The position numbers were made by a program, and so were the translations under genes. The notes beneath the pieces were generated by a model that ran no database searches, was not told where the DNA came from, and saw only the letters and a list, made by a program, of their open reading frames with translations. 45,642 bases of DNA from Gammaproteobacteria bacterium (lineage in GTDB: Bacteria > Pseudomonadota > Gammaproteobacteria > Steroidobacterales > Foliamicaceae). Positions 34,727-44,327 of this stretch are shown one piece after another. Location: NCBI GenBank assembly GCA_028821145.1, contig JAPPHC010000067.1:1-45642 (forward strand), read 5' to 3'. Position 1 is the stretch's first letter. Each line of letters opens with the position of its first letter.

Positions 34727-36889
34727 ATGAAAAAGGGCAAAGCGAACGGATCACTCTCCAGCTTGCCGCCGGACTGGGCGGCCCGGGCCAAACAGGAGCT
34801 CAAGGGCGCCGACGCCGCGGGCCTGATCTGGGACACGCCGGAAGGGATCCCGGTAAAGCCGCTGTACACGGTCAAGGACCTTGAGGGTCTGCAGCACATC
34901 CGCAGCCTGCCCGGCGCGCCGCCGTACGTGCGCGGGCCGCGGGCCACCATGTATGCCGGCCGGCCCTGGACCGTTCGCCAGTACGCGGGGTTTTCCACCG
35001 CCGAGGAGTCGAACGCGTTCTACCGGCGCAATATAGCCGCCGGCCAGTCGGGCCTGAGCGTCGCCTTCGATCTGCCCACGCACCGCGGCTACGACTCGGA
35101 CCATCCGCGCGCGCTCGGCGATGTGGGCAAGGCCGGGGTGGCCATCGATACCGTCGAGGACATGAAGCGACTGTTTGACGGCATCGCGCTCAAGGACATG
35201 TCGGTGTCCATGACCATGAACGGGGCGGTCCTGCCGGTCATGGCCATGTACATCGTGGCGGCGGAAGAGCAGGGAGCCCGTCTCGAGGACCTGTCGGGCA
35301 CCATGCAGAACGACATTCTCAAGGAGTTCATGGTCCGCAATACCTACATCTATCCGCCGGACCCCTCCATGCGGATCGTGGGCGACATCATCGCGTTCAG
35401 TGCCCGCAACATGCCGCGCTTCAATCCCATATCGATTTCCGGCTACCACATGCTGGAAGCGGGCGCCACGGCGGTTCAGGAACTGGGCTATACGCTGGCC
35501 GACGGCCTGGAGTACGTCCGCGCGGCCATGAACGCCGGTCTCGACGTGGACGAGTTCGCTCCGCGGCTGAGCTTCTTCTTCGGCATCGGCATGAATTTCT
35601 TCATGGAGGCGGCGAAGTTGCGGGCCGCGCGGCTGTTGTGGGCGGAGCTGATGCAGGAGCGGTTCGCGCCGGGCAATCCCCGCTCGCTGATGCTGCGTAC
35701 GCACTGTCAGACTTCCGGCGTGAGCCTGACCAGCCAGGATCCGTACAACAACGTGATTCGCACGACGGTCGAGGCTCTGGCGGCGGTGCTGGGCGGCACG
35801 CAGTCGCTGCACACGAACAGCTTCGATGAGGCCCTGGCTTTGCCCAGCGATCATTCGGCGCACATAGCGCGCAACACGCAGCTCGTCCTGCGCGAGGAGA
35901 CCGGCGTGACCCGCGTTGCGGACCCGCTGGGAGGTTCGTACTATGTGGAGAGTCTTACCGCCTCCCTGGCGACGGGGGCCCGCGAACTGATCCGCGAAGT
36001 GGAGGACCTGGGCGGCATGACGCGCGCGATCGAGGCCGGGGTTCCCAAGCTGCGCATCGAGGCGGCGGCCGCGCGACGCCAGGCCCGGATGGAGCGCGGC
36101 GAGGACGTTGTGGTAGGAGTGAACCGGTACCAGCTTGCCGACGAAGCCGAGGTTGAACTGCTTGATATCGATAATCGCAAGGTGCGGGAAAGCCAGTTGC
36201 GGCGGATCGCCGAGGTGCGGTCTCAGCGCGACGAGAAGGCCTGCCGGGCTGCGCTTGCCGAGTTGCGGGCGGCGGCCTCGCGGGACGGTACCGAACTGGT
36301 TGCACCTGCACTGGAAGCGACCCGCAGGCGGGCCACCGTCGGCGAAATCTCGCTGGCGATGGAAGAGGTGTTCGGCCGGCACCGGGCCGTGTCGCAGACG
36401 GTGAGCGGAGTGTATTCACAAGCCTATGAAGGCGACGAGGAATTCGCCTCGCTCCAGCAGCGCGTGCGCGAGTTCGGGAAACGGGCAGGGCGCCGGCCCA
36501 GGATCCTGGTGGCCAAGCTCGGCCAGGACGGGCACGACCGCGGCGCGCGGGTCGTCGCCTCGGCGCTGGCCGACCTGGGCTTCGATGTGGACATCGGGCC
36601 GCTGTTCCAGACTCCCGAGGAGGTCGCGAGGCAAGCGGTCGAGAACGACGTGCACCTGGTGGGCATTTCCTCTCAGGCGGCGGGGCACCGGGAATTGGCG
36701 CCGCGCATGATCGAGGCGCTGCGCGCCGAGGGAGCGGGGGACGTGCGCGTGGTGATCGGCGGAATCATTCCCAGGCAGGACCGCAAGCTGCTGGAGGATG
36801 CGGGAGTGGCGCTGATATTCGAGCCCGGCGCCAACATCACGGCCGCCGCCACGGACATGCTGGCGCTGCTGGAGGGAGATGAAGAATGA
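34727..36889 (+). CDS. mcmA: Methylmalonyl-CoA mutase (single-chain, adenosylcobalamin-dependent)
   Basis: The mutase interconverts methylmalonyl-CoA and succinyl-CoA. The 720-residue protein has the catalytic barrel with [22 protein letters not shown] (catalytic Tyr in TMY), then [17 protein letters not shown] and [16 protein letters not shown]-terminal B12 domain follows with LGQDGHDRG (Asp601, axial His603, Gly606) and the GG of VVIGGIIP. The TMY/RPWTxRQYAGFS text is that of methylmalonyl- rather than isobutyryl-CoA mutase. The length fits the homodimeric single-gene form. It is the first gene of a tightly coupled operon, and its stop overlaps pccB (ATGA). The symbol scpA is also used for this enzyme, unrelated to the kleisin above. 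Confidence 0.97.
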
Positions 36890-38427
36890 GCGAGCGTGCC
36901 CGAAGGCTCAAGCGGCTGGAGGAGATGCGCGCGGCCTCGCGCGCCGGCGGCGGCGAGGCGCGGGTCAAACGGCAGCACGAACGCGGCAAGCTGACCGCGC
37001 GCGAACGCCTGGAGGTGCTGCTCGATGCCGACAGCTTCGAGGAGTGGGATGCCTTCGTGGAGCACCGCAGCAGCGATTTCGGCATGGAAGAGCAGCGCAT
37101 ACCCGGAGACGGCGTGATATCCGGGCACGGGCGCATCAACGGCCGCCTGGTGTTCGTGTTCAGCCAGGACTTCACCGTGTTCGGCGGCTCGCTGTCGGAG
37201 ACCAATGCCCGAAAGATCTGCAAGGTGATGGAACAGGCCATCAAGGTGGGAGCGCCCATCATCGGCCTGAACGACTCCGGCGGCGCGCGGATACAGGAAG
37301 GCGTGGCCTCGCTGGGCGGCTATGCCGACGTCTTCCAGCGCAACGTGCTGGCGTCCGGCGTGGTTCCGCAAGTCTCGCTGGTGATGGGCCCCTGCGCCGG
37401 CGGCGCTGTGTATTCGCCGGCGATCACCGATTTCATCTTCATGGTGCGCGGGACTTCGTACATGTTCGTGACCGGTCCGGACGTGGTGAAGACGGTCACG
37501 GCCGAGGAAATCACCGCCGAGGAACTGGGCGGGGCGGACACGCACAATTCCCGCTCCGGCGTTGCCGACCGCGCCTTCGACGACGACGTGGAGACGCTGC
37601 GCATGGCGCGCCTGCTGATGGGTTACCTGCCGTCCAGCAACCGCGAACGCGCACCGGCACGACCGACCGACGACCCCGAGGACCGGGCCGAGCATTCACT
37701 CAACAGTCTCGTGCCCACCGACCCGGCCAAGCCGTACGACATCAAGGAGCTGATCTACAAGGTGGCGGACGAGAGCGAGTTTTTCGAGCTGCAGCCCGAT
37801 TTCGCGCGCAACATCGTGACTGGCTTCGTTCGCATCGCCGGAGAAACGGTGGGCGTGGTGGCCAACCAGCCCGCTGTCCTGGCCGGCTGTCTTGACATCG
37901 AAGCCTCCGTCAAGGGGGCGCGATTCGTTCGCTTCTGCGACGCTTTTTCGATTCCGCTGCTGACTCTGGTGGACGTGCCGGGCTTCATGCCGGGATCGCA
38001 GCAGGAATACGGGGGAATCATCCGCCACGGCGCCAAGCTGCTCTACGCCTACGCCGAGGCCACCGTGCCCAAGGTCACGGTGATCACCCGCAAGGCCTAT
38101 GGCGGCGCCTACGACGTGATGTCGTCCAAGCACCTGCGCGGCGACGTGAATTTCGCCTGGCCCAGCGCCGAGATCGCCGTGATGGGACCGCAGGGCGCGG
38201 TGGAGATCATCTTCCGCCGGGATATCGGCGATGCGGAGAAGATCGCCGCCCGAACCGAGGAATACCGGCGCAAGTTCGCCCACCCGTACGTCGCCGCGGG
38301 ACGCGGCTACATCGACGACGTGATCGAGCCGCGCGTGACCCGCGCGCACCTGTGCCGTTCCTTTGCCATGCTGCGCAACAAGCGCATCAGGGACCCCTGG
38401 CGCAAACACGGCAACATCCCCCTTTGA
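36886..38427 (+). CDS. pccB: Propionyl-CoA carboxylase beta chain (carboxyltransferase)
   Basis: The 513-residue carboxyltransferase subunit has the N-terminal crotonase half ([57 protein letters not shown]) and the C-terminal half ([47 protein letters not shown]). The pattern fits propionyl-CoA carboxylase, consistent with the adjacent mutase. The start overlaps the mutase stop (ATGA) and the stop overlaps the TTG start of pccA. Confidence 0.96.
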
Positions 38428-40400
38428 AGAAGCTGCTGATCGCTAACCGCGGTGAGATCGCCTGCCGCATCATGCGGGGCGCGCAGGCACTCGGCATCCG
38501 AACCGTGGCCGTCTGTTCCGACGCCGATTCCGAGGCCCTCCACACGCGCACGGCCGACGAGGCCGTCCGCATAGGGGGCCTGACCGCGGCCGACAGCTAT
38601 CTCGACGTGGAAAAAATCATTGCGGCCTGCAAACAGTCGGGCGCGGACGCCCTGCACCCCGGCTACGGGTTTCTTTCCGAGAATGCCCGTTTCGCCGCGG
38701 CGGTGGAGGAAGCCGGCATTGCCTTCGTCGGACCCCCGGCGGAAGCGATCCGGCTAATGGGGGACAAGCTGGAGGCCAAGCGCATCGCCGCCGCAGCCGG
38801 CGTTCCCGTAATTCCCGGCCGCCCCGAGGCCATGGAAAGCGCCGATGCCGCGGCCGAGGCGGCCGCCGATATCGGCTACCCGGTATTGCTGAAGGCCCAG
38901 GCCGGTGGCGGCGGGCGCGGCATGCGGATCGCGCGCGACGAAGCCGAGTGCCGGGCGGGATACGAGCAGGCCGTTCGGGAAGCCGAGGCGGCGTTCGCCG
39001 ACGGGCGCGTATTCGTGGAGAAATACCTGGAGCGCCCGCGCCATATCGAAGTTCAGGTTCTGGCCGACGGCCACGGTTCGGTGGTGCATCTTGGAGAGCG
39101 CGAGTGCTCGATCCAGCGCCGCTATCAGAAAGTCATCGAGGAGGCGCCTTCGCCGTTCGTGACGCCGGAAATGCGCTCGGAGATGGGCGAGGCCGCCGTT
39201 TCACTGGCGAAGGCGATCGGCTACCGCTCCGCCGGCACCGTCGAGTTTGTGGTTGACGCGTCGGGCAGCTTTCACCTGCTGGAAATGAACACCCGGCTGC
39301 AGGTGGAGCATCCGATCACCGAGTGGGTTGCCGGCATCGACCTGGTGCAGTGGATGCTGCGGATTGCCGCGGGGGAAGCGCTGGATTTCACCCAGGAGGA
39401 TGTCGAACTCAAGGGCTGGTCCATGGAAGCCAGGATCTGCGCCGAAGACCCGGAGCGGGACTTTCTGCCCGCGGCCGGCCGGCTGGTTCGCTGGCTGCCG
39501 CCCTCGGCCGGCCCGGCGCTGCGGCTGGACGCCGGAGTGGAGGAGGGCGACGAGGCGTCCGTTTACTACGATTCGCTGATCGCGAAGCTGGTGGTGTACG
39601 GGCAGGACCGGAACCAGGCTGCCGCCCGCCTGGCCGCCGCGCTGGATAATTTCGCGGTTGAAGGACCGGCCACCAATGTGCTGTTCCTGGCTTCTCTCGC
39701 GCGCCATCCGCGATTCGTCGCGGGCGAACTCACCACGGCTTTCATCGGCGAGGAGTATCCGGAGGGCTTTCGGCCGGACGATGACGGCAACGCTGCGCTC
39801 ACGCAACTGCTGGGTGCAGTGACGGTCATGGCCCAGGACCGTGCGGCCCGCATGACGCCGTCGGGCTGGACGGAGTCGGTGCTTCTCGCCGACGGCGAGG
39901 AGGTAAGGCTGAAGAGAAAGTGGGAAAACGGGTGCGTGAGCGTGCGATTCGGAAGAAGAATCTACAGGCTGGAGAGCGGCTGGCGCCCGTTCGAGCCGAT
40001 TGCCCGCTGCAAGGTCCGCGTTCCCCGTGGCGCCGGGCTCGCCGGGGGCGAAATGTTCTTCGTTGTTCAGCGGGATGGACTCGGCGTCACCGTCTCGCAT
40101 GCGGGCGCCAAGCGCGAATTCGTGTACCTGCCGCCACGCTCCGCCCGGCTGAAGGGCCGCATGGCGGCCCGGCCGGCACACCTGGGAGTCACCGCACTCA
40201 ACGCGCCGATGCCCGGCGTGCTCACCCAACTGCGGGTCGAGGAAGGCGAGGAAGTGAAGACCGGGCAGGAAATAGGGGTCATCGAGGCGATGAAGATGGA
40301 AAACAGCCTGCGGTCGCCACGGGACGGCCACATCCGGGAAATCGCCGTAAGCCCCGGCGACAACCTGGAGACCAACCAGCTCATCCTGCGTTACGAATGA
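38424..40400 (+). CDS. pccA: Propionyl-CoA carboxylase alpha chain (biotin carboxylase plus biotin carrier)
   Basis: The 658-residue biotin-dependent subunit has an N-terminal biotin carboxylase domain ([39 protein letters not shown], and [16 protein letters not shown]), a middle interaction domain, and a C-terminal biotinyl domain with the acceptor Lys624 in EAMKMENS. The start is TTG 38424, which overlaps the pccB stop as TTGA and puts Met directly before [10 protein letters not shown]. Any earlier start would read through non-conserved text antisense-like in composition. It makes D-methylmalonyl-CoA for the epimerase encoded next. Confidence 0.95.
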
Positions 40401-41626
40401 GCGGGCAGATCGAAATCCTGGCCGAAGGCGTGCTGGCCGGCGATCGCCGCAGCCTGGCGCGCGCGCTGACCCTGGTGGAGTCCGAGCGGGGCGTTGACCG
40501 CGATGCGGCGCGCGCGCTTATCGAGCGGCTTCGGGAGGGATCCGGCCCGGCCACGAGAATCGGGATCACGGGTCCGCCCGGGGCCGGCAAGTCCACGCTG
40601 ATCGAGCAACTGGGCCTGCGCTTCGTGGAGGCCGGGAAGCGCGTGTGCGTGCTGGCCGTCGATCCTACCTCGTCACGCACCGGCGGCTCGATCCTCGGGG
40701 ACAAGACGCGGATGACCGAACTGGCGCGCAAGGCCGGAGTGTTCATCCGGCCCTCGCCGACCGGCGACGGCAGCGGCGCCTTGAGCGGCCGAACGCGCGA
40801 AGCCCTTACGGTGCTCGGCAGCGGTCCGTTCGATTACCTCTTGCTCGAAACGGCCGGCTCTGGACAGGCGGACACGGAAGTTGCGAACCTGGTGGACGTG
40901 CTCGTCCTGGTGCTGGCGCCCGGCGGCGGAGACGAGTTGCAGGGCATGAAGCGCGGGATAAGAGAGCTTGCCGACCTGATCGTAGTGAACAAGGCCGACG
41001 GCGAAACGCGTCAACTGGCCCGGTCCACGGCGTCCGATTACGCGCGTTCCCTACCGGCGGCGGGGCGCGACGCGGTGGTCAGTTGCTCGGCGCTGGAGGG
41101 GACCGGCCTGGACGAACTCGCTCGCCGGATCGCCGATCTGGCTGACTCGGCGCCGGCAAGGCAGGCGGGGGAGCAGGCGCCGGATCGCGATGCATCCGGC
41201 GCGATCGGACGGCTGAACCACGTGGCTCTGGCCACGGCGGACGTGGAACAAGCCGCCGCCTTTTATCGCGATGTCCTGGGCGCGGAGGTTTCGGAACCGA
41301 AGCCGCTGCCCGAGCATGGCGTCACGACCGTCTTTGTCCGGTTGCCCAACACCGCGCTGGAGCTGCTGGAACCGCTGGGCGAAGAGTCGCCGATCAGCGG
41401 GTTTCTCAAGCGTGCGACATCCGGCGGGATGCACCACATCTGCTGCGAGGTCGATGACATCCTGGCGGCGCGTGACCGGGTGCGCGAGCAAGGCGTGCGC
41501 ATACTGGGCGACGGCGAACCGAGCATCGGCGCGCATGGCCTGCCGGTCCTGTTTCTGCATCCCAAGGACTGTTTCGGGGTGCTTATCGAGCTCGAGGAAC
41601 GTGCTAGTGTTGGCTCCGGGGAATAA
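40397..41626 (+). CDS. Fusion of MeaB (mutase-associated GTPase) and methylmalonyl-CoA epimerase
   Basis: One uninterrupted 409-residue frame joins two proteins of the propionate route. Residues 1-250 are a MeaB/ArgK G-protein: Walker A GPPGAGKST (59-67), DPTSSRTGGSILGDKTRM (89-106), ETAGSGQAD (151-159), GGGDELQGMKRGIRELADL (switch III-like) and NKAD (198-201). A linker (about 251-270) leads to a VOC-fold methylmalonyl-CoA epimerase (272-402): LNHVALAT with His275, GGMHHICCEVDD with metal His at about 347, and LIELEE with Glu398. Known MeaB proteins of about 330 residues end in a dimerisation arm; that arm is absent and the epimerase takes its place. The start overlaps the pccA stop (ATGA). 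MeaB protects and loads the B12 mutase, and the epimerase feeds it L-methylmalonyl-CoA. Confidence 0.93.
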   Translation: MSGQIEILAEGVLAGDRRSLARALTLVESERGVDRDAARALIERLREGSGPATRIGITGPPGAGKSTLIEQLGLRFVEAGKRVCVLAVDPTSSRTGGSILGDKTRMTELARKAGVFIRPSPTGDGSGALSGRTREALTVLGSGPFDYLLLETAGSGQADTEVANLVDVLVLVLAPGGGDELQGMKRGIRELADLIVVNKADGETRQLARSTASDYARSLPAAGRDAVVSCSALEGTGLDELARRIADLADSAPARQAGEQAPDRDASGAIGRLNHVALATADVEQAAAFYRDVLGAEVSEPKPLPEHGVTTVFVRLPNTALELLEPLGEESPISGFLKRATSGGMHHICCEVDDILAARDRVREQGVRILGDGEPSIGAHGLPVLFLHPKDCFGVLIELEERASVGSGE

Positions 41627-41656: not shown

Positions 41657-42034
41657 ATGCCGCGGATATTTGTGCTGTTGGCGACGCTGCTGCTGGCGTC
41701 ATCCGTTTTTCTTGCAGCCTACGGAACGCACGGTCTTTTCGAGGCCGGCGCCGCCGCCTCGGAGGTGCGTGCCTGGGACTGGGCGAACCAGATTCAGGTA
41801 GCGCACTCGCTCGGACTGCTGGCCGTGGGACTGATGCTGCGCCGCAGCCCGGACGTCCTGTTCTACAAGGTAGCGGGATGGCTTCTGATCGTGGGCGTGG
41901 TCGTATTCTCGGGCACCGTCTACATGAAATTGCTGGGCGGTCCGGACTTCGGCCAGCTGACGCCCTACGGCGGCACGACGCTGGCGATCGCCTGGCTCAG
42001 CGCCGCCGTCGGCGTCTGGCGCGACCTCCGCTAA
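41657..42034 (+). CDS. DUF423 (YgdD-like) small membrane protein
   Basis: The 125-residue protein has four hydrophobic segments and the DUF423 marks: AAYGTHGL near the start, NQIQVAHSLGLLAVGL, and FSGTVYMKLLGGPDFGQLTPYGGTTLAIAWL. The function of this inner-membrane family is unknown. ATG 41657 has a strong GAGGAGG site. It lies 30 bases after the fusion gene on the same strand and may be the last gene of the propionate operon. Its TAA stop overlaps the opposing transacylase stop in CTAA. Confidence 0.92.
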   Translation: MPRIFVLLATLLLASSVFLAAYGTHGLFEAGAAASEVRAWDWANQIQVAHSLGLLAVGLMLRRSPDVLFYKVAGWLLIVGVVVFSGTVYMKLLGGPDFGQLTPYGGTTLAIAWLSAAVGVWRDLR

Positions 42035-42993
42035 CCTGGTTTCAGTGAGAGGGCGTCGTCGGCGTTGATGACGGCGCCGATTTCGGCGTCGTGGCCGGCG
42101 CCGCGGCAGTATTTCTTCAGGATGCCCTGCAGGTTCGGCCGCTTCTCCGCGGGGGTTTCGCCGCGTCCGATGCCGCCGCCCAGTTCCAGGAATGACGACA
42201 CGCCGTTCTCCACAGCCCACTGCATGCACCCGACCCAGTTCACCGGGTTGATGAGCTGAAAGAAAAGCCGGGTCCGAATGGCTTCCGGCGCGGGATCGTG
42301 CGGCCGCGCCGTGTAGTTGGACAGCACCGGGAAGCGCGGAGCATGGAACTCCGTGGTCCTGAGCACGTCGCGGAACTCCCGCGCCGCCGTCACCATCAGA
42401 TAGGTGTGGAACGCGCCCTCCGTGGCCAGGGGCGTCCCCCGCTTGCGCGGATAGTTCTCCGCCAGGTCGGCGGCCAGTTGCTCCAGATCGGCGTGCGTGC
42501 CGCCCACGACCGTCTGGGTTGGCAGGTTCAGGCCGGCGACCTGGCAGCAGTGCCGATCGGCGAGCTGCCGCGCCTCTTCGGCGTCCATGGCAAGCGCCAG
42601 CATGCCGCCTTCGCCATATTCGCCCATCAGCCGGCCGCGCTCGCCGACCAGGCGCAGCGCGTCGTCGAATGCCAGCGCCCCGGCGGCAACCAGCGCACTG
42701 TATTCGCCCAGGCTGTGTCCGGCGGCCGCCAGCGGCGTCAATGCGCCGCCCGACTGCGCTTCCGTCACCCGCAGGCAGGCGATCGAGTGGGTCAGCAGCG
42801 CGGGCTGCGTGTAGCGCGTGAGCCCGATCCGGCCTTCCGGGTCGCTGAAGCTGAGTTCCCGCATGTCGTAGCCGAGCGCCTCGCCGGCCTCGTCATAGAC
42901 CCTGCGGGCCGCGTCGAAGGCCTCGTAGAGATCGCTCCCCATGCCGGCGTACTGGGCGCCCTGGCCGGGAAATACCAGCATTCCAGTATTCAT
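42031..42993 (-). CDS. ACP S-malonyltransferase (FabD-like)
   Basis: The 320-residue acyltransferase has FPGQGAQYAGMG (oxyanion Gln), the nucleophile elbow GHSLGEY with Ser94, an Arg in GERGRLMGEY that binds the malonyl carboxylate in FabD, and the catalytic His in TEGAFHTYLM. It therefore looks like a malonyl-CoA:ACP transacylase. It is not in a fab cluster: its neighbours are an aminotransferase and a convergent DUF423 gene, so it may be a second copy with a special role. It starts nine bases after avtA on the same strand. Confidence 0.87.
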   Translation of the reverse strand: MNTGMLVFPGQGAQYAGMGSDLYEAFDAARRVYDEAGEALGYDMRELSFSDPEGRIGLTRYTQPALLTHSIACLRVTEAQSGGALTPLAAAGHSLGEYSALVAAGALAFDDALRLVGERGRLMGEYGEGGMLALAMDAEEARQLADRHCCQVAGLNLPTQTVVGGTHADLEQLAADLAENYPRKRGTPLATEGAFHTYLMVTAAREFRDVLRTTEFHAPRFPVLSNYTARPHDPAPEAIRTRLFFQLINPVNWVGCMQWAVENGVSSFLELGGGIGRGETPAEKRPNLQGILKKYCRGAGHDAEIGAVINADDALSLKPG

Positions 42994-43002
42994 GGGTGAG
43001 TC

Positions 43003-44259
43003 TCAGGCTGCCTTTGCTTGCAGGCGGGAGGCTTCTTCGCCGATGATTCTCAGTCCTTCGAATACCGAGTCCGCGTCGCCGCAAACATTGACGCGGATGC
43101 ATTCGCGCTCGTGGGTCCACGGCTTTTGCAGGCCGGGGAAGAATTCGTGCCCGGACAGGATCATCACGCCGCGGGACCTCAGGCGCCGGTAAAGGGTCTG
43201 GTTGTCGTTGAGCCCCGGGAACCACAGCCACAGGAACATCGAGCCTTCCGGCTTGTGGATGTAGTAGTCGCAGTTCGTCAGCGTTTCATGGCAGAAGCCC
43301 ACCGCGTCGTGGACCTTGCGCTGGTAGAACGGCATGATTAGGTCGCGGCTGATCCGCAGCAGTTCGCGGTTCTCCAGCAGCGGCGCGACCAATGCGGCGC
43401 CCGCGGCCCCCACCGCCAACTGCGTAAGCGCGTTCACGCGCCCCATGATTTCCGTGACCTCCTCGTTGGCCACGACAATCCCCGTGCGCAGCGCCGGAAG
43501 CCCGATCTTGGACAGGCTCATCGTCAGTATGGTGTTGTCGTTCCACTCGGGGCGCTCATTGACATAGATCATGCCGGGGAAGGGGAAGCCGTAGGCGTTG
43601 TCGACGATCAACGGGACCTGTCGTTCCCGCGCCACCTCATCGAGCCGCGCAAGTTCCGACTGGCGAATCACGTTGCCGGTGGGATTGGTGGGCCTGGACA
43701 CGATGATCGCACCGACGTCCGCGACTTCATCCAACCCTTCCATGCGCAGGCCGTACTTGAACTGTCGGTTGGGGAGCTTGCGGATGACCGAGCGGCGGGA
43801 GGCTACGTCCGCGTCGTCGGAAAGCAGCCCCTTGTAGCCGATGTATTCCGGGCACAGCGGAATGATGATCCGGCGCCGTTTGCCGCCGGGGCCCACGCCG
43901 CCGAAGAGGTTGAAGAGATAGTAGAAGCAAAGTTGGCTTCCGGGCGCCAGGGAAATATTTTTGGCGGTCAGTGGCCAGCCGTATTCCTCGCGCAGCATAT
44001 CGGCCAGCGCCTCGCGGAATCGGGTATCTCCCAGCGGTTCGGAATAGATCGACGCCATGTTGTCGAAGCGGCCCGGGTCCGCGGCGATTTTCGCCAGTTC
44101 GGCGCGGAAAATTTCCCTGACTTCGGGAATAATGGCCGGGTTGCCGCCTCCAAGCCGATACACCTTGTCGACTCCCGGAATCGGGCACGACATGTCTTCC
44201 ATCAATTCCTTCGCGCCGCTGTGGGCGTTGAAGGTCCTGACAAAATTGGAGTACTGCAT
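43003..44259 (-). CDS. avtA: Valine-pyruvate aminotransferase
   Basis: The 418-residue PLP enzyme of fold type I catalyses transfer between valine and pyruvate. The family-specific text includes YRLGGGNPAIIPEV, ASIYSEPLGDTRFREALADML, LAPGSQLCFYYLFNLFGG, PTNPTGNVIR, VDNAYGFPFPG, and the PLP lysine in TMSLSKIGLPALRTG. ATG 44259 is favoured over the GTG one codon earlier; an AGGA lies 9-12 bases upstream. It is probably co-transcribed with the FabD-like gene downstream. It fits the branched-chain and propionyl-CoA metabolism seen elsewhere in the window. Confidence 0.94.
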   Translation of the reverse strand: MQYSNFVRTFNAHSGAKELMEDMSCPIPGVDKVYRLGGGNPAIIPEVREIFRAELAKIAADPGRFDNMASIYSEPLGDTRFREALADMLREEYGWPLTAKNISLAPGSQLCFYYLFNLFGGVGPGGKRRRIIIPLCPEYIGYKGLLSDDADVASRRSVIRKLPNRQFKYGLRMEGLDEVADVGAIIVSRPTNPTGNVIRQSELARLDEVARERQVPLIVDNAYGFPFPGMIYVNERPEWNDNTILTMSLSKIGLPALRTGIVVANEEVTEIMGRVNALTQLAVGAAGAALVAPLLENRELLRISRDLIMPFYQRKVHDAVGFCHETLTNCDYYIHKPEGSMFLWLWFPGLNDNQTLYRRLRSRGVMILSGHEFFPGLQKPWTHERECIRVNVCGDADSVFEGLRIIGEEASRLQAKAA

Positions 44260-44327
44260 CACATCATCCTGGCCGGTGCGTTGGCGGGTGGATTATCTAC
44301 TACGGAGTTACTGATCTACTAACGTAT

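Follow-up and report, generated by a model that had tools for sequence, protein, structure and literature searches.

The window analyzed here, a 45,642-nucleotide contig (JAPPHC010000067.1, assembly GCA_028821145.1) from a gammaproteobacterium of the family Foliamicaceae, order Steroidobacterales, carries at positions 40397 to 41626 a gene in which the G domain of the GTPase chaperone MeaB is joined in frame to a methylmalonyl-CoA epimerase. The fusion is real and conserved in one genus, and its sequence indicates that it most likely encodes a working bifunctional protein in which both domains are very probably active. It is not unique as a MeaB-epimerase fusion; a form without the C-terminal dimerization arm of MeaB occurs only in this genus among the matches listed in our surveys.

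Domain structure of the fusion

40397..41626, + strand: MeaB G domain-epimerase fusion gene, 409 amino acids, ATG to TAA, single uninterrupted frame
40571..40597, + strand: P-loop GPPGAGKST, residues 59-67; S66 corresponds to MeaB S69 (Mg ligand)
40661..40711, + strand: switch I, residues 89-105; D89, D102, and R105 correspond to MeaB D92, D105, and R108
40847..40867, + strand: switch II region ETAGSGQ, residues 151-157; E151 and Q157 correspond to MeaB E154 and Q160
40916..40951, + strand: switch III, residues 174-185; D179, Q182, and K185 correspond to MeaB D182, Q185, and K188
40988..40999, + strand: base-specificity motif NKAD, residues 198-201, from the alignment of MeaB rows
41174..41209, + strand: linker, residues ~260-271, after the last G-domain helix (236-259), sitting where the arm of stand-alone MeaB begins
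41210..41599, + strand: methylmalonyl-CoA epimerase domain; metal ligands H275, H347, and E398 correspond to human H50, H122, and E172

A sequence-only reading of the window had described one frame with a complete G domain and a complete epimerase, and the profile matches bear this out: residues 20 to 260 match positions 1 to 244 of the 273 in Pfam MeaB (PF03308; E value, 1.7e-78), and residues 272 to 401 match positions 1 to 129 of 129 in TIGR03081 (metmalonyl_epim; 167.8 bits, cutoff 114.95). Against the MeaB equivalog models the protein scored 246.6 bits with TIGR00750 (cutoff 240.75) and 292.3 bits with NF006958 (cutoff 329). The solved structures closest in sequence are bacterial MeaB for the G domain (8dpb and 2qm7) and human MCEE for the C-terminal part (3rmu, with an E value of 1.1e-50, and 6qh4). 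A Foldseek search with a predicted model agrees, recovering MeaB 8dpb at 45 to 48% identity and human MCEE 6qh4 with a template modeling (TM) score on the target of 0.91 to 0.96 and a root mean square deviation of ~1 Å; identity to the human MCEE chains over the aligned structure was 60 to 62%.

Of two predicted models, model 1 (mean predicted local distance difference test [pLDDT], 84.6; predicted TM score, 0.65) gives a good epimerase and a good fold over much of the G domain, with parts of residues 90 to 130 and 160 to 240 weaker; its alignment (A1) misplaced the separate MeaB rows onto epimerase columns from about residue 190. A second mixed alignment (A2) was discarded, its consensus once more appearing misplaced. 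Model 2, from an alignment of MeaB rows only (A3), is better in the late G domain and poor in the epimerase (mean pLDDT, 67.3); neither model informs on the arrangement of the two domains. All MeaB column counts are taken from A3 (8 fused and 45 separate proteins), those from A1 being set aside, and MeaB residue numbers are those of PMC9974510, transferred by sequence alignment.

Conservation within one genus

Nine genomes of the family were compared, the window's among them and all from a single genus. Of these, 8 carry a full-length, single-frame fusion, and the other seven fused proteins have 77 to 96% identity to that of the window. Because the same single-frame fusion recurs in 7 of the 8 other genomes of the genus, it is not an assembly slip. 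The sequence-only reading had raised a frameshift or stop between the domains as a possible undoing of the fusion; none is present in the window, and no internal stop was found in any of the 8 fused genes. The assembly that holds the window is a draft in 83 contigs, 66% complete, a circumstance in which an assembly or sequencing artifact might have deleted a stop codon together with the arm, but the same fusion in seven further genomes, one of them a single-contig assembly, makes such an artifact extremely improbable.

Both the fusion and the methylmalonyl-CoA mutase are missing from the ninth genome (91% complete), and the two co-occur in the other eight. No second MeaB or epimerase was detected in the nine genomes, where the search returned, besides the fusion, only IcmF-like frames and weak matches (E values of 3.4e-5 or worse); the IcmF-like frames of two fusion-bearing genomes (G002:C3 and G005:C53) are 1112 to 1114 amino acids long. 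The fused genes are under purifying selection: over 28 pairs, the median ratio of nonsynonymous to synonymous substitution rates (dN/dS) is lowest in the epimerase (0.09), followed by the G domain (0.15), and highest in a linker window of 18 codons (0.40; residues 251 to 268).

Absence of the dimerization arm

The C-terminal extension of MeaB takes part in dimerization (PMC9974510), and in human MMAA the dimerization arm acts as the hinge of the open-to-closed switch (PMC10356863). We compared this region in 122 MeaB-matching frames that passed a match filter, 120 of them complete (the fused proteins and a Bacillota fusion described below among them). The median tail past the equivalent of residue 245 is 78 residues in the complete frames, and among separate MeaB proteins the shortest complete tail measures 53 residues, with one of 51 in a frame that runs off its contig. 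An R..Q..W-like pattern occurs in the tails of 102 of 110 separate MeaB proteins, a set prefiltered for tails of at least 40 residues. In the fusion only 26 residues separate residue 245 from the epimerase match, confirming the earlier proposal that the epimerase begins where stand-alone MeaB has its arm. The arm is absent, not hidden, and has a short linker in its place, since the last G-domain helix ends at about residue 259, residues 260 to 266 have a pLDDT below 50 in model 1, and the epimerase match starts at residue 272.

Conserved residues of the two domains

Key residues of the nucleotide motifs and the metal ligands noted earlier in the window's protein are kept in all 8 fused proteins. 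In the G domain, all 8 fused and all 45 separate proteins share the residues equivalent to MeaB S69, D92, D105, R108, E154, Q160, D182, Q185, and K188, and P-loop residues G59, P61, G62, G64, K65, and S66 are invariant across A3. The position of MeaB K189, which contacts the mutase in the complex from M. extorquens (PMC9974510), is occupied by arginine in 8/8 fused and 31/45 separate proteins. The equivalents of the metal ligands H50, H122, and E172 of human MCEE (PMC6525113) are likewise identical in 8/8 fused and 53/53 separate epimerases, and 26 of the 27 epimerase columns conserved at 90% or more are kept in the fused proteins. The human dimer-interface positions Ile53, Gly168, and Val169 read Leu, Gly, and Val in 8/8 fused proteins, and the most frequent residues in separate epimerases are Ile (48/53), Gly (52/53), and Thr (37/53).

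Operon context and origin

34727..36889, + strand: methylmalonyl-CoA mutase, single chain of 720 amino acids with a C-terminal B12-binding domain; expected target of the G domain
36886..38427, + strand: PccB-type propionyl-CoA carboxylase beta carboxyltransferase (Pfam Carboxyl_trans; E value, 1.4e-200), with a 4-nucleotide overlap with the mutase gene
38424..40400, + strand: PccA-type biotin carboxylase with a biotin-carrier domain (Pfam Biotin_carb_N/C, CPSase_L_D2, and Biotin_lipoyl above cutoffs)
41657..42034, + strand: DUF423 protein (Pfam DUF423), downstream of the fusion and also in three relatives (L038-L040)

The mutase scored 1200.8 bits with NF006944 (cutoff 876), matched Pfam MM_CoA_mutase and B12-binding, and aligned to the human mutase 8gju with an E value of 1.8e-286. 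The fusion's ATG overlaps the stop of the biotin carboxylase gene (ATGA), and the putative TTG start of the latter at 38424 was assigned from a 4-nucleotide overlap of its own (TTGA). In the window (34727 to 41626) and in L038-L040, which belong to uncultured Gammaproteobacteria, all three gene boundaries upstream of or at the fusion can be read as 4-nucleotide overlaps, compared with 1 of 56 boundaries in 20 loci of order relatives, under a rule that chose the -4 start wherever one exists; these overlaps suggest translational coupling of the operon genes. The DUF423 protein probably stands outside the mechanism.

The 20 order-relative loci, picked because a survey showed neighboring matches, all have the order PccA-MeaB-epimerase, with MeaB and epimerase as separate, adjacent genes; the complete series mutase-PccB-PccA-MeaB-epimerase is present in 17 (one of them, L142, with an interrupted mutase frame), and contig ends truncate the remaining 3. 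Broken frames were seen in L142 and L021 (both of genome G122), where stops interrupt MeaB and mutase, reflecting either a decaying operon or assembly errors, and a Rhodospirillales metagenome-assembled genome (MAG; L089) has the last two genes reversed (mutase-epimerase-MeaB). A MeaB gene followed within 400 nucleotides by a separate epimerase gene was found at 59 loci, several of them duplicates of one genome, with an exact 4-nucleotide overlap in 30.

A tree of 43 concatenated MeaB and epimerase pairs (35 separate, 8 fused) was built after keeping 35 of the 65 loci with both separate proteins and dropping 30 with low-scoring epimerases. In it the fused proteins group as a single clade (ultrafast bootstrap, 98), next to the separate pairs from the order and class. 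The simplest reading of these data is that the fusion arose by the joining of adjacent meaB and epimerase genes within the operon of this order.

Distribution and comparison with known systems

Surveys of epimerase matches in frames long enough for both domains covered the order, the class, the phylum, and three other phyla, in overlapping genome sets, with Actinomycetota, Planctomycetota, and Archaea lying outside them; frameshifted fusions would escape this open-frame screen. The order was surveyed with the whole protein (147 genomes, among the matches listed) and for epimerase matches (396 genomes, 56 with a match). The class survey took in 369 genomes (19 with an epimerase match) and the phylum survey 398 (155 with a match), the latter with fusions sought among the matches listed. 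The other phyla were those of a Bacteroidetes MAG (L060; 198 genomes, 184 with a match, fusions again sought among the matches listed), of Mesobacillus (L064; 199 genomes, 86 with a match), and of a Neomarinimicrobiota MAG (L099; 100 genomes, 80 with a match).

Among the matches listed, at least one MeaB-epimerase fusion lies outside the genus.

L208:3081-4484, + strand: second MeaB-epimerase fusion, 468 amino acids, MeaB tail kept, between mutase and PccB genes of the Bacillota genome G1124
L215:2380-3222, - strand: mutase-type B12-binding domain fused to an epimerase, 281 amino acids, between mutase and PccB genes of G1183

Like the window's fusion, the L208 protein carries its epimerase behind a MeaB domain and is encoded next to mutase and PccB genes; it differs in keeping the MeaB tail and in belonging to another phylum. 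The epimerase is unfused in the sole family-mate compared (G1166), and we infer that the L208 fusion is of independent origin. The sequence-only reading had left room for a domain search to reveal such fusions as common or already described. The search yielded this one fusion outside the genus among the matches listed, and none of the titles and abstract openings listed in searches of the open-licence literature, nor the passages found in several of those papers, describes the window's fusion, a result that does not establish its absence from print.

Several other candidates proved not to be fusions. In G668, G751, and G295 the long frame has an epimerase and no MeaB match; in G513 and G558 the epimerase frame itself is 134 amino acids long; in G1130, G1044, G1092, G931, G1028, G910, G1046, and G994 the epimerase frame is without MeaB; and in G114, G1403, G078, G1406, G1441, G035, G134, G098, and G102 the two are separate, adjacent genes. 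Five loci from the phylum of a Bacteroidetes MAG (L210-L214) have an epimerase followed by further sequence in the same frame, which Pfam identified as an alpha/beta hydrolase in L210 and assigned to no second family in L212.

The earlier reading had set the window's protein against IcmF as the known fusion of this enzyme group. It does differ from IcmF, and L208 and L215 show that it is not the sole fusion of its kind. As in IcmF, the G domain is part of one chain with an enzyme of acyl-CoA metabolism rather than an obligate dimer by itself; unlike in IcmF, where the G domain sits on its target mutase, it is carried by the enzyme that supplies the mutase's substrate. The chaperone is thus tied to the preceding enzyme of the pathway, as had been proposed: the epimerase domain is in frame, the mutase is a separate gene, and the IcmF model NF045497 gave 111.4 bits, far under its cutoff of 1500. 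Compared with MeaB and MMAA (2qm7, 8dpb, and 8gju), the fusion shares the N-terminal helices, a complete G domain, the switch I to III residues, the base loop, and a neighboring mutase gene, and it departs from them in lacking the C-terminal arm and six residues after position 219, in carrying an epimerase, and in 12 fixed changes. Relative to methylmalonyl-CoA epimerase (TIGR03081 and human MCEE), the domain is full length with all three metal ligands, but it is carried behind a G domain and, in 7 of the 8 genes, lacks a separate start codon.

Proposed function and alternative explanations

We propose that the fusion acts in the conversion of propionyl-CoA to succinyl-CoA, where its N-terminal MeaB-type G domain would load adenosylcobalamin into, and edit, the methylmalonyl-CoA mutase encoded upstream, and its C-terminal epimerase would be a working enzyme feeding the same mutase. 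It would have a single origin in an ancestor of the genus, by fusion of neighboring meaB and epimerase genes in a mutase-PccB-PccA-MeaB-epimerase operon, with loss of the arm. The active site of MeaB comprises two G domains, with the switch III of one placed on its partner's nucleotide, and the two are normally paired by the arm (PMC9974510 and PMC10356863). For this reason the epimerase dimer may have taken over the pairing, holding two G domains close enough to form the active site upon mutase binding. The presumption that the epimerase is itself dimeric agrees with human MCEE and bacterial orthologues (PMC6525113), and an identical active G:G interface results from the turning of an obligate dimer (MeaB and MMAA) and from oligomers (IcmF) (PMC10481361). 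This dimer hypothesis is attractive; the data are also compatible with an armless G domain that could pair only on the mutase. That the fusion represents a third way to a two-protomer site, borrowing the dimer of the preceding enzyme and also placing substrate supply and cofactor repair on the mutase, is conceivable but doubtful. Taken whole, the explanation, comprising a bifunctional protein, a single origin by gene joining with arm loss, and pairing through the epimerase dimer, appears on balance probable, and the dimer hypothesis is its weak link.

Several observations weigh against this explanation. The sole conserved epimerase column that has changed is position 278, equivalent to Ile53 in the human dimer interface, where all fused proteins have leucine; this is a mild change, with isoleucine in 48/53 and leucine in 2/53 separate epimerases. 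The fused G domain is remodeled: at 12 positions where at least 90% of separate MeaB proteins agree, the fused proteins are all fixed for a different residue (E162D, in MeaB numbering, beside switch II being one case), and a gap of six residues follows residue 219. The clade-specific changes in and just after the switch II region are V156A, S161A, and E162D. Further, the fused clade sits on a long branch, with median identities to 19 separate pairs of 50% (G domain) and 66% (epimerase), compared with 70% and 79% among those pairs; because of this distance, an origin inside the operon of this order is only inferred, and transfer of the fusion from elsewhere is possible.

Neutral operon compaction would account for the fusion differently: joining would save space and fix a 1:1 ratio, the arm would be dispensable, the G domains would pair only on the mutase in an IcmF-like manner, and the epimerase would be a passenger. 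The 4-nucleotide overlaps at all three boundaries in the window and in 3/3 relatives, so rare in order relatives, fit such a process, as do the fusions of other neighboring pathway genes (L208 and L215) and the example of IcmF, which functions although its G domain forms no obligate dimer (PMC10481361). However, arm loss is fixed in 8 genomes, each filtered separate MeaB has a tail of at least 51 residues, and, as the tail retained in L208 shows, joining by itself does not eliminate the arm; we consider compaction a serious but unlikely account. That two proteins are made from the one frame, by internal initiation or linker cleavage, draws on a linker that has low model confidence and is more variable than the domains and on one gene (L008) with three TTG codons near the epimerase-domain start, where a separate start is possible. 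In the other 7 of the 8 genes, however, no ATG, GTG, or TTG was found from 40 codons upstream of that start to 4 codons past it, and splitting would not give back a MeaB arm, making this route improbable. A G domain that has lost its chaperone role and only regulates or stabilizes the epimerase would fit the clade-specific changes around switch II and the six-residue gap after residue 219, just behind a helix that appears, by residue offset, to match the wedge helix of IcmF. The catalytic and switch III residues compared are nevertheless kept, selection is purifying, and no other MeaB was detected in the genus, which leaves this loss of function more improbable still.

A naturally armless MeaB fixed in a lineage offers a direct test of the arm's role and of whether closeness alone suffices. 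As genomic evidence of the Rosetta-stone type, the fusion also points to possible action of epimerase and chaperone close to a common mutase, which is relevant to MMAA, MCEE, and MMUT, the human proteins of methylmalonic aciduria.

Other features of the window

Downstream on the reverse strand (42031 to 44262), a FabD-type acyltransferase, below the FabD equivalog cutoff, adjoins a relative of valine-pyruvate transaminase. A Pfam scan of ten other proteins of the window returned a match in 5.

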